From Lachnospiraceae bacterium (GTDB taxonomy: Bacteria > Bacillota > Clostridia > Lachnospirales > Lachnospiraceae), in NCBI GenBank assembly GCA_028693165.1, contig JAQUVX010000013.1, positions 1 to 64,000 on the forward strand: a DNA stretch of 64,000 bases, given 5' to 3'. The notes beneath the pieces were generated by a model. It was not told where the DNA came from and searched no databases. It saw nothing but the letters and a program-made list of their open reading frames with translations. The translations under genes were made by a program, and so were the position numbers. Positions within the stretch are counted from its first letter, which is position 1. The number at the start of each line of letters is the position of its first letter. Of the stretch, positions 1,165-5,028 are shown piece by piece.

Positions 1165-1365
1165 TTATGCGTTGGCCAGAACTTCGTTGATACCTGCAAC
1201 CAGAGTATCACAGTCGATTCCGTGAACCATGCATGCCTCTTCCAGACTCTCGCCCTGAGCGGACGGGCATCCCAGGCAATGCATCCCTGCGCGCATCAGC
1301 ATCGGTGCGATCAACTCATGCTGCTGAACCAGGTCACCAATCAACATATCTTTACTAATCTGCAT
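1165..1365 (-). CDS. DUF1858 domain protein (hybrid-cluster-associated redox disulfide type)
   Basis: A 66-residue protein consisting of one DUF1858 domain. It has the family's paired cysteines in HCLGCPSA and a third cysteine seven residues before the ACMVHG stretch. Proteins of this kind occur in anaerobes, alone or fused to hybrid-cluster or redox proteins, and are thought to act as small thiol-redox modules; their true role is unknown. The start at 1365 follows AAGGAGGAAAATAAT; an ATG further upstream would place the ribosome site inside the gene. It is transcribed away from the pyruvate formate-lyase operon, so the two share a 216-bp intergenic region and possibly redox control. Confidence 0.8.
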
Positions 1366-1411
1366 ATTATTTTCCTCCTTAATGCACATACTATTTACAT
1401 ACCCTCAGTCT

Positions 1412-1581: not shown

Positions 1582-3675
1582 ATGAAAAACGAATGGAGAA
1601 CATTCAACGCTGGTGTGTGGGAGCGCGAGATCAACGTGCGCGACTTCATCCAGAAAAACTACACCCCTTATGATGGCGACGATACATTTTTAGCAGGCCC
1701 AACCGCCAACACCACGGCTCTGTGGGAGCAGGTTATGGAACTGAACAACAAAGAGCGTGAGGCCGGCGGAGTGCTGGATATGGATACCAAGATCGTTTCC
1801 GGTATCACTTCTCATGGCGCAGGCTATCTGAATAAAGACAAAGAAACCATTGTCGGTTTCCAGACAGATAAGCCGTTCAAGCGTTCCCTGCAGCCTTACG
1901 GCGGCATCCGCATGGCTGAGAAGGCATGCAGCGACAATGGCTATGAGGTTGATCCTGAGGTTGTCGACTTCTTCGTAAAGCACAGAAAGACACACAACGC
2001 CGGCGTATTTGATGCTTACACCCCTGAGATGCGCGCATGCCGTTCCAGCCACATCATCACCGGTCTTCCGGATGCTTATGGCCGCGGCCGTATCATCGGT
2101 GACTACCGCAGAATCGCTCTGTACGGTGTTGACCGTCTGATCGCGGACAAGGAAGAGCAGAAAGCAACCACCCGCAGCACCATGTACTCCGAGATCATCC
2201 GTGACCGCGAAGAGCTGTCCGAGCAGATTCGTGCACTCAAGGAGCTGAAAGAGTTGGGCAATATCTATGGCTGTGACATTTCCAAACCGGCAGCGGATGT
2301 AAAGGAAGCAATCCAGTGGACCTACTTCGGCTACCTGGCTGCTGTCAAGGAGCAGAACGGTGCGGCTATGTCTCTCGGACGTACCTCCACCTTCATCGAC
2401 ATCTACGCAGAGCGCGATCTGGCTGAGGGCAAATACACCGAGGATCAGGTTCAGGAGTTCATCGACCACTTCATTATGAAGCTGCGTCTGGTAAAATTTG
2501 CACGTACCCCTGAGTACAACGCACTGTTCTCCGGCGATCCGACCTGGGTAACCGAGTCCATCGGCGGCGTTGGCATTGACGGACGTCACATGGTAACCAA
2601 AATGTCCTACCGTTATCTGCATACCCTGCAGAACCTGGGCACTGCTCCGGAGCCGAACATGACCGTACTGTGGTCTACCAGACTTCCGGAAAACTTCAAA
2701 CGTTTCTGTGCAAGAACCTCGATTGAGTCTTCCTCCGTACAGTACGAGAACGACGATCTGATGCGCGTAACCCACGGTGATGACTATGCGATTGCCTGCT
2801 GCGTATCTTCCATGAGAGTCGGCAAGGAAATGCAGTTCTTCGGCGCCCGTGCAAACCTGGCGAAATGTCTGCTGTACGCAATCAACGGCGGTATCGACGA
2901 AGTGAGCAAGAAGCAGGTTGGACCGAAGTATCGCCCGATCACCTCCGAGTATCTGGATTACGATGAGGTTGTGGAGCGTTATGAAGACATGATGCAGTGG
3001 CTGGCTGGCGTTTATGTAAACAGCTTAAACATCATTCACTATATGCATGACAAATATTCTTATGAGAGACTGCAGATGGCTCTGCACGATCACAAGGTAA
3101 CCCGTTGGTTCGCAACCGGTATTGCCGGACTTTCCGTTGTTGCTGACTCCCTGTCCGCAATTAAGTACGCAAAGGTAAAAGCAATCCGTGACGAGGACGG
3201 CATTGTCGTTGATTACGAAGTTGAGGGTGATTTCCCGAAATACGGCAACGACGACGACCGTGTTGACCAGATCGCTGCTGATCTTGTTCACACCTTTATG
3301 AACTTTGTAAAACGCAACCACTGCTACCGCGGCGGTATTCCAACAACCTCCATCTTGACAATCACTTCCAACGTGGTTTATGGTAAGGCTACCGGATCTA
3401 CTCCGGACGGACGTAAGAAGGGTCAGGCATTTGCACCAGGTGCAAACCCGATGCATCACCGCGATACCCACGGAGCAGTCGCTTCTTTAGCTTCTGTAGC
3501 AAAGCTGCCATTCAAGGATGCACAGGACGGTATTTCCAATACCTTCTCCATCATCCCGGGCGCACTGGGCAAAGAAGATCAGCTGTTCATGGGCGATATC
3601 GATGTGGATCTGGAGTGCGGCATTGACAGCGCATGCGCAATCCCGAACCTGACAGAAGGACTTGACAGAGAATAA
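1582..3675 (+). CDS. pflB: Pyruvate formate-lyase catalytic chain lacking its glycyl-radical domain
   Basis: Converts pyruvate and CoA to acetyl-CoA and formate. The 697-residue chain aligns with PflB from its start through the adjacent active-site cysteines Cys406-Cys407 (in ACCVSSM) and up to [13 protein letters not shown]. coli PflB is about 760 residues and goes on to the RVSGYA glycyl-radical loop. Here the chain instead ends in an unrelated tail of about 31 residues (with two cysteines) and a TAA stop. The radical domain is encoded separately 37 bases downstream. The start at 1582 follows ACAGGAGGCAGCATTT; an upstream ATG at 1531 has no ribosome site. It is first in an operon with the radical protein and activase. 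The identity is firm; that both chains form one enzyme is inference. Confidence 0.93.
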
Positions 3676-3712
3676 AGCAAACTGACAAAAAGAAAATAAG
3701 GAGGAATTTACT

Positions 3713-3958
3713 ATGGCACATGCAAGCGCAGCTCAAATTGATAACCTGGTTTCCCTGTTGGACGGATATGCGTCTCAGGGCGGACATCATTTAAATGTAA
3801 ACGTATTTACCAAAGAAACTCTGCTGGACGCACAGGCTCATCCGGAGAAATATCCGCAGCTGACCATCCGCGTATCCGGCTACGCAGTGAACTTTATCAA
3901 GCTGACCAAAGAGCAGCAGGATGAGGTGATCTCCCGTACATTCCACGACACGATCTAG
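3713..3958 (+). CDS. grcA: Stand-alone glycyl-radical domain (GrcA/YfiD-like) of pyruvate formate-lyase
   Basis: An 81-residue protein equivalent to the last part of PflB. It carries the radical motif RVSGYAV with the radical-bearing glycine at Gly56, preceded by HHLNVNVF and EKYPQLTI as in full-length enzymes. Residues 10-19 ([10 protein letters not shown]) match the loop that precedes this domain in PflB. It has its own AAGGAGGAATTTACT ribosome site, so it is a planned separate protein, not a frameshift product. E. coli GrcA/YfiD (127 residues) is a spare radical domain that repairs oxygen-cleaved PflB. Here there is no radical domain in PflB itself, so this protein must supply it in every turnover if the enzyme works. 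The activase gene follows after 12 bases. Confidence 0.92.
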
Positions 3959-3970
3959 GAGGCAGATCAT

Positions 3971-4729
3971 ATGGTTGGACGAGTCCACTCCATAGAAAGT
4001 TTCGGCACAGTAGACGGACCAGGGGTCCGTCTAGTTGTGTTTTTGCAGGGGTGCCCGATGCGCTGCCTGTACTGCCACAATCCGGACACCTGGAAGATCG
4101 GCGGTGGCACCGAGATGACGGTTGACCAGATCATGGCTCAATATGAAAAGAACCGTTCCTTCTACAGCCGCGGCGGCATCACTGTGACCGGCGGCGATCC
4201 GCTGGTGCAGATCGGATTTGTGACCGAGTTATTCACCGAGGCCGTCCGGCGCGGGATTCACACCTGTCTGGACACCTCCGGGATCACCTTCCAGCCGGAT
4301 AAGCCGGAGGTCATTGAGCGCTTTGACAAGCTGATGGCCGTGACCGATCTGGTCATGCTGGATATCAAGCACATTGATCCGGAAGGCCATCGAAAGCTGA
4401 CCGGCCAGCCGTTGGAACCGATTCTCGCCTTTGCCCGCTATCTGGATGCCAAATCCATCCCCGTGTGGATTCGCCACGTCGTAGTACCCGGCATCACCTA
4501 TGATCAGAACGAGCTATACCGTCTGGGACATTTCATCGGCACCCTGACCAATGTCAAAGTGCTGGATGTTCTCCCTTATCATGACATGGGCAAGGTGAAA
4601 TATCAGAATCTCGGCATGGATTACCCGCTGAAGGACACACTGCCGCTCACCCGCGAGCAGGCGGTTGCAGCGAAAAAGGTGATTTTAAAAGGAATTCGGG
4701 ATGAAAGAAATCTTAATGAGAAAAGTTAG
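3971..4729 (+). CDS. pflA: Pyruvate formate-lyase activating enzyme (radical SAM)
   Basis: A 252-residue radical-SAM protein of usual PflA length. Cys28, Cys32 and Cys35 in GCPMRCLYCHN bind the [4Fe-4S] cluster that cleaves S-adenosylmethionine and abstracts hydrogen from the target glycine. The following CHNPDTW is the PflA-type signature, and GGDPL is the SAM-binding GGE-like motif (D replaces E). The start ATG has GGAGGCAGATCAT in front. It is co-transcribed with the split PFL genes, and its substrate should be Gly56 of the 81-residue protein. An external one-electron donor, flavodoxin or ferredoxin, is needed; a ferredoxin gene lies 130 bases downstream. Confidence 0.93.
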   Translation: MVGRVHSIESFGTVDGPGVRLVVFLQGCPMRCLYCHNPDTWKIGGGTEMTVDQIMAQYEKNRSFYSRGGITVTGGDPLVQIGFVTELFTEAVRRGIHTCLDTSGITFQPDKPEVIERFDKLMAVTDLVMLDIKHIDPEGHRKLTGQPLEPILAFARYLDAKSIPVWIRHVVVPGITYDQNELYRLGHFIGTLTNVKVLDVLPYHDMGKVKYQNLGMDYPLKDTLPLTREQAVAAKKVILKGIRDERNLNEKS

Positions 4730-4857: not shown

Positions 4858-5028
4858 ATGGCATATGTAATTTCTGACGCTTGTGTTAGTTGTGGAACCT
4901 GCGAGGGCGAGTGCCCAGTAAGCGCTATCTCTCAGGGAGACAGCCAGTACAACATCGACGCTGATGCTTGCATCTCCTGCGGCAGCTGTGCAGGTGTTTG
5001 CCCGACCGGCGCTATCAGCGAAGGCTGA
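4858..5028 (+). CDS. 2[4Fe-4S] ferredoxin, clostridial type
   Basis: A 56-residue ferredoxin too short for many gene finders. Two CxxCxxCxxxCP motifs are visible: CVSCGTCEGECP near residue 9 and CISCGSCAGVCP near residue 38. They bind two low-potential [4Fe-4S] clusters. The start follows TTAAGGAGGACTTTATC, and a strong terminator follows the stop. Such ferredoxins carry electrons for pyruvate:ferredoxin oxidoreductase, hydrogenase and radical-SAM enzymes. Its place directly after pflA makes it a fair candidate for the reductant of the activase, but a general role is equally possible. Confidence 0.92.
   Translation: MAYVISDACVSCGTCEGECPVSAISQGDSQYNIDADACISCGSCAGVCPTGAISEG

Follow-up and report, generated by a model that had tools for sequence, protein, structure and literature searches.

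Pyruvate formate-lyase (PFL) is the textbook single-chain radical enzyme, and the small protein GrcA has been described as its spare part. The Y06I protein of phage T4 is an autonomous glycyl radical cofactor. In the available parts of two reports, YfiD/GrcA of Escherichia coli is a small protein corresponding to the radical domain of PFL, which is radicalised by PflA, works in trans on PflB, and repairs complete PFL after oxygen cleavage (PMC8683613, PMC12338860). Here we describe a locus in a stretch of 64,000 nucleotides from a Lachnospiraceae bacterium (the window; GenBank assembly GCA_028693165.1, contig JAQUVX010000013.1, positions 1 to 64,000 of the forward strand), where PflB differs in having no radical domain of its own and the adjacent gene, grcA3, encodes that domain. 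Judged from its genes, this locus encodes a naturally split PFL, the split itself being evident in the sequence. GrcA3 (81 residues) also differs from YfiD in lacking the long disordered N-terminal part that the accessible text of PMC8683613 gives to the latter, and full-length PFL, the repair target of a YfiD-type protein, was not found in the window genome.

The split pyruvate formate-lyase locus

The gene pflB (1582-3675, plus strand, as for all parts of the locus in this section) encodes a 697-residue catalytic chain without the radical domain, which alone exceeds the curated cut-off of the PFL model TIGR01255 (1096 against 994.2 bits) and carries the adjacent catalytic cysteines Cys406-Cys407 (codons at 2797-2802), a pair invariant in an alignment of 47 rows. 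One trait of a PFL is missing from this chain, the radical glycine, which is encoded by the next gene, grcA3 (3713-3958), whose product is a glycyl-radical domain protein with the radical Gly56 (codon 3878-3880) in the motif RVSGYAV. The two genes are read in different frames and are separated by 37 bases (3676-3712), which hold a ribosome site for grcA3 (AAGGAGG, preceding its ATG). The gene for the radical S-adenosylmethionine activase, pflA (3971-4729; 293.8 bits with TIGR02493, cut-off 231.75), starts 12 bases past grcA3. On the 744-position TIGR01255 profile, PflB covers positions 2-664 and GrcA3 positions 663-743 including the radical glycine, and the Pfam glycine-radical domain PF01228 is divided between the two proteins (1-50 in PflB, 49-106 in GrcA3). 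These coordinates and profile halves confirm an earlier interpretation made from the DNA letters only (hereafter the sequence-only reading), which had described a separate radical-domain protein with its own ribosome site, followed by the activase. It also guessed rightly that databases would name the small protein GrcA: the product is a member of the NCBIfam family GrcA3 (NF038360, 166.1 bits, curated cut-off 158), a model that names the small protein only, and scores below the cut-off of the YfiD/GrcA model TIGR04365 (93.9 against 170 bits).

After ALGKED, PflB continues into a 31-residue tail (residues 667-697, at 3580-3672), which contains Cys679 (codon 3616-3618) and Cys685 (codon 3634-3636), then IPNLTEGLD. 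The tail had been noticed before and called unrelated; its presence stands, but its first part is shared with many split PflBs and the part with the two cysteines scores as the C-terminal half of another small protein, introduced below.

Structure prediction of the complex, proposed in the sequence-only reading, was run with AlphaFold as a single chain of PflB, tail and GrcA3. The fold is PFL-like, the best match in the PDB being E. coli PFL (2pfl, template modelling score 0.91 normalised by its 759 residues), and the benzylsuccinate synthase alpha-beta-gamma complex 4pkf is also among the matches. The predicted local distance difference test (pLDDT) score is low to moderate in the radical domain and below 50 in the tail and linker, with a mean of 72.6. 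The model thus hints that GrcA3 may fit in PflB where a radical domain normally sits. In the mechanism we propose, PflB contributes the barrel along with the two catalytic cysteines, GrcA3 would serve as its normal radical domain and not as a spare, PflA would install the radical on Gly56, and GrcA3 would dock in PflB and hand the radical in trans to the catalytic cysteines.

The third gene and the cysteine tail

The split loci fall into two main types. Where the PflB tail contains cysteines (Cys tail), pflB and grcA3 are separated by a median of 29 bases (-20 to 163; 44 distinct loci), and where it is short and Cys-less, by a median of 283 bases (156 to 476; 78 distinct loci). The long gaps were folded as possible RNA elements or terminators, an idea dropped since the sequence revealed an open frame. 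This gene between pflB and grcA3, here named MID, encodes 59-110 residues (median 70). After identical loci were merged, MID was present in 77 of the 78 short-tail loci, in none of the 44 Cys-tail loci, in neither of two tail-less split loci, and in none of 40 fused loci, the last being compared with short flanks only (80/81, 0/46, 0/2 and 0/44, respectively, before merging).

In its N-terminal half, MID is similar to the beginning of the radical domain (32 columns aligned by hhalign, probability 95.9, E 5e-9), including its GGHxNV strand and lacking the glycine loop. Most members carry DC-x(4-6)-AC-x-[VIQ]-P-T in the C-terminal half, and at least two cysteines are found in 85/85 MIDs. The ratio of nonsynonymous to synonymous substitution rates (dN/dS) was 0.05-0.18 in four of five sets, so MID looks translated and selected (the fifth set was saturated in dS and gave a pN/pS of 0.17). 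Four MIDs were tested and no NCBIfam or Pfam model matched them above its curated cut-off; at full length they reached at most 24.1 bits with NF038360, and hence are not GrcA3 members. In 295 whole genomes of the order, all 42 full-length MID matches (41 genomes) adjoin grcA3 in split loci. A whole-genome search found no MID in the window genome, and a plasmid search with one MID as query gave no match. Together with the Cys tail, MID makes up an accessory unit that is new among glycyl radical enzymes, its novelty being judged by comparison with family libraries only, as no name exists for a literature search; family-based annotation probably overlooks it.

The Cys tail appears to be another form of the same unit. 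At least two cysteines occur in 43 of the 44 distinct Cys tails. With MID and the PflB tail taken as alternative carriers, they occur in 120 of 122 distinct tailed split loci, none of which has both forms (0/122). The window tail scored 27.9 bits against a model of the MID C-terminal half, the best of 920 shuffled tails reaching 7.9, and a search of the entire window genome matched 3613-3675 to MID positions 47-68, weakly (E 0.018). Before merging, 25 of the 46 Cys tails scored above every shuffle. As far as sequence comparison can tell, the window tail is most likely the end of a MID joined to PflB after loss of the MID N-terminal half. On the best tree, MID and the Cys tail need 11 changes each, which corresponds to about 11 switches between the two forms; with supported branches alone the number is smaller, at least five. 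Fusions of this type point to PflB as the protein on which MID acts.

We propose that the cysteine-pair unit belongs to the PFL system, as the C-terminal half of MID in most relatives and as a C-terminal fusion to PflB in the window. It would act as a flexible thiol-exchange arm, keeping the catalytic cysteines reduced or, once oxygen has damaged them, making them so again. Seen in this way, the split would be designed for oxygen repair, the cleavable radical domain being cheaply replaced and the catalytic thiols re-reduced. MID or the tail is quite likely a functional component; the thiol-exchange role, argued by analogy, is plausible but somewhat less likely than not, and the explanation as a whole (split PFL, GrcA3 as radical domain, cysteine pair as thiol arm) is one that we somewhat favour.

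The homology of the MID N-terminal half to the start of the radical domain also invites a different explanation, in which this half sits in the GrcA3 dock as a decoy or placeholder, keeps empty PflB folded or switched off until displaced by activated GrcA3, and leaves the cysteines a secondary role. Consistent with it, the accessible text of PMC8683613 describes PFL without its C-terminal part as prone to proteolysis, and residues 696-733 as acting as a recognition element. However, the Cys-tail loci lose exactly this half and retain the cysteine pair in all but one case, and across 19 MIDs the only invariant residues of the N-terminal half are Asp17 and His26, compared with Ala61, Cys62 and Pro65 in the C-terminal half. 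We consider a decoy unlikely.

The sequence-only reading had taken the tail mainly as a docking surface for GrcA3. In its favour, the motif F-x-G-[DE]-[LI] (FMGDI in the window) occurs in split PflBs of both tail types (77 of 78 short-tail, 29 of 44 Cys-tail) and is absent from all 40 fused enzymes. The cysteine part, however, lies off PflB in 78 of the 122 distinct tailed split loci, and on another protein, the separate MID, in 77 of these 78. Docking as the general role of the tail is thus unsupported, and we regard it as improbable. Since the F-x-G-[DE]-[LI] stretch is common to both tail types and absent from the fused enzymes, it is the stronger candidate for docking in general.

The cysteine pair could also bind a metal ion or an iron-sulfur cluster, which we consider very improbable. 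Small Cys-bearing accessory subunits do occur in other glycyl radical enzymes, those of benzylsuccinate synthase and 4-hydroxyphenylacetate decarboxylase binding iron-sulfur clusters. A cluster usually requires four ligands, whereas the units described here mostly have two conserved cysteines, with a spacing of 4 to 8 residues in MIDs (x5-x6 in 80/85) and 0 to 5 in tails. This variable spacing fits a dithiol, as in the thiol-exchange arm proposed above, better than a rigid metal site.

Distribution, dependence and ancestry of the split enzyme

In the same 295 genomes, a stand-alone GrcA3 was found in at least 53, from four family codes (weaker scores were not counted, so these numbers are lower bounds), and in 53/53 of these the pflB frame stops before grcA3, a few having a contig break in or after pflB. 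Only two of 398 sampled genomes of the phylum, both from the window's own family, passed the NF038360 cut-off, which is strict, some true split copies scoring below it. In a scan of named genomes, GrcA3 was a gene of its own in all of the best 80 loci, a set biased to near kin, and a truncated pflB lay directly upstream in 79, the remaining one being at a contig end; these loci come from Lachnospiraceae, Ruminococcus, other Oscillospiraceae and a few Erysipelotrichaceae. A genome of the window's own genus has the same arrangement with a gap of 51 bases (G258, locus L075). Altogether, 124 distinct split loci were typed, 122 with a PflB tail and two tail-less. Loci without a PflB piece or with PflB on another contig remained untyped, and a motif filter left out the split loci L082, L176, L178 and L187 (all with MID) and the fused L214, L230, L235, L247 and L251.

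The gene pair whose conservation the sequence-only reading had wished to see checked recurs in 124 distinct loci, and the sequencing error that might have joined its frames is excluded, as the arrangement is seen in all these loci. That the gene is broken or misassembled and the true PFL lies elsewhere, a view for which a genome with a second, full-length PFL (Claveliimonas bilis, below) might speak, can be practically dismissed, because the split recurs in this way, GrcA3 is under purifying selection in all five sets tested (dN/dS 0.03-0.06), and no further PFL reaching TIGR01255 grade was found in the window genome.

For dependence on the split enzyme, 56 genomes were searched for PFL, 53 with the split pair and three with a fused PFL (mostly drafts, 52/56 with a completeness of 90% or more). 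A further eight named genomes joined the set, and Blautia An81, which has the same coordinates as G283, was counted once, giving 60 distinct split genomes. No full-length PFL of TIGR01255 grade was found in the 53 split-pair genomes of the first set, nor in 59 of the 60 distinct ones, the window genome among them. Besides the split PFL, the search of the window genome found only distant glycine-radical proteins; judged by eye, L002, L003 and L004 comprise two probable anaerobic ribonucleotide reductases and one probable PFL-type enzyme of distant kinship. Thus, 59 of 60 distinct genomes rely on the split pair, provided that PFL is used at all, and the partner looks obligatory, as the sequence-only reading had supposed: GrcA3 is very likely the sole radical domain available to PflB. 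A second complete pflB, named in that reading as a counter-sign, is absent from the window genome and present in Claveliimonas bilis. For Clostridium phytofermentans ISDg, the accessible text of PMC3561251 has an entry of 0.1 in the apparent formate column of a yield table and three genes in the apparent PFL column, a split being unmentioned there. Strain KNHs2131 of this species (L203) has the split pair only, and the two observations together fit a working enzyme.

Phylogenetic analysis started from 173 typed rows before merging, 158 of them with a core of more than 600 residues. The larger PflB-core tree had 127 rows (less than 95% alike) and the smaller one 61 (less than 86% alike, without the long fused L218, L231, L245, L248, L249 and L252). 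A single clade contains every split row that has a full PflB core (91 rows in the larger tree, 37 in the smaller), with the fused L036 and L037 inside it. Constraining the split rows to group without these two lowered the likelihood by 77.9 (approximately unbiased test, p 0.0123; fast model, 61 rows, constrained group picked after inspection of the larger tree). L036 and L037 score 162.4 and 151.5 bits on the GrcA3 model, L036 falling in the range of split copies, in comparison with at most 143.5 bits for fused PFLs outside the clade among the matches listed, so a re-fusion fits best, and the simplest reading is one fission followed by one later re-fusion. Independent fission in every lineage was rejected, given the single clade interrupted only by these two fused rows. 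In the tail-less loci L183 (1-830) and L188 (1-860), PflB ends right past LGKED or LGKDD and MID is absent. They may have arisen by another fission, separate from the first and connected with a different PFL lineage, their placement, based on 168 columns, varying between trees (with two fused rows, support 97, or three, 89).

Several neighbouring and additional genes were also observed. In the window, a small two-cluster ferredoxin (4858-5028; NF058577, 92.3 bits) lies 128 bases past pflA and is a possible electron source for the activase. Divergent from pflB, a 74-residue open reading frame (1165-1389, minus strand) has the motif MHCLGCP and presumably resembles the DUF1858 group. An additional GrcA3 gene with no pflB seen beside it occurs in at least seven genomes (L103, L109, L111, L113, L119, L121 and L124), that of L124 being at a contig end and accompanied by MID. 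A rubrerythrin-like gene, named by eye, is found within about 1 kb in L121 (2724-2988 and 3399-3938) and L119 (2384-2641, minus strand, and 3577-4110), which would fit a spare copy for oxygen stress. Relatives of GrcA3 are encoded in 1538 of 50,697 phage records, most of them from phages that infect enteric bacteria, which T4 Y06I would lead one to expect.

The cysteine-pair unit and known radical enzymes

Several points weigh against the reading of an obligatory split PFL served by a thiol arm. PFL turnover, unlike that of ribonucleotide reductase (RNR), forms no active-site disulfide, and a thiol arm is needless for catalysis; for this reason, a maintenance role after oxygen damage is proposed. 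Published works reportedly treat sulfinyl radicals and Cys419 in the oxygen inactivation of PFL. Once only supported branches are admitted, the link between MID loss and Cys tail is down to five independent pairs, every one of which, or every one except one, points the expected way (sign test, p 0.06). Of the 46 Cys tails, 21 (for example, DCACCEPN) score no higher than the best shuffle, being too diverged to assign; some of these may not descend from MID, and all but one keep at least two cysteines. L098 has a single cysteine. In the split locus L200 (1793-4234) both MID and the Cys tail are missing, and since L181 and L201, its relatives, have a CPxC tail, this would be due to loss or assembly error. 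Both forms of the unit are likewise missing from the fused L036 and L037 and from the tail-less L183 and L188. The predicted model leaves the window tail without confident structure or position (pLDDT below 40), and in an AlphaFold chain of PflB, MID and GrcA3 from L185 (pLDDT 64.4 overall) the MID block reaches only 24-39. Claveliimonas bilis (L265, complete chromosome) carries a full-length PFL beside the split one, the sole such case among the 60 genomes. Finally, E. coli YfiD rescues damaged PFL, and the accessible text of PMC8683613 mentions no such arm.

The sequence-only reading knew of no biochemical description of an obligatory split. This agrees with the Creative Commons-licensed PMC literature, in which a description of a split PFL or of GrcA3 was absent, most subscription journals lying outside that search; as far as seen, the obligatory split is so far at most annotated. 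Many Lachnospiraceae and Ruminococcus that live in animal guts appear to have turned the spare part into the only part. Formate makers are common in this habitat, and the available text of one survey places a formate pathway in 530 of 830 gut species (PMC9403272). These natural two- and three-piece systems make radical installation, docking and oxygen repair separable without engineering, and MID and the Cys tail provide an accessory unit with a testable role.

The closest parallel to the proposed arm is found in RNR, which shares a ten-stranded barrel and one superfamily with PFL (PMC4390871, accessible part). According to the available text of PMC4520616, the class II RNR of Pseudomonas aeruginosa is split, and its small separate subunit NrdJb, which has redox cysteines at the C-terminus, mediates dithiol exchange and is essential in vivo, as both parts are needed there. 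Two conserved cysteines at a variable distance, on a tail without confident predicted structure, also recall the swinging cysteine pair of RNR. Like NrdJb, the units described here present a conserved cysteine pair on a small protein or flexible tail (85/85 MIDs, 43/44 Cys tails), and the DLDCSNGAC of L128 may be compared with DDGCESGACKI at the end of E. coli NrdA. It is possible, though doubtful, that an RNR-like dithiol arm, which is carried by MID or has become attached to PflB several times, keeps reducing the catalytic cysteines and ties a PFL built for oxygen repair to the thioredoxin or glutaredoxin pool of the cell; if so, glycyl radical catalysis in gut Clostridia would be linked to this pool through a multi-part enzyme of PflB, GrcA3, PflA and MID. 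The two systems differ in that RNR oxidises its cysteines at each turnover and PFL does not, and in that the N-terminal half of MID derives from a radical domain. The likeness to NrdJb is one of architecture and, if real, would be convergent.

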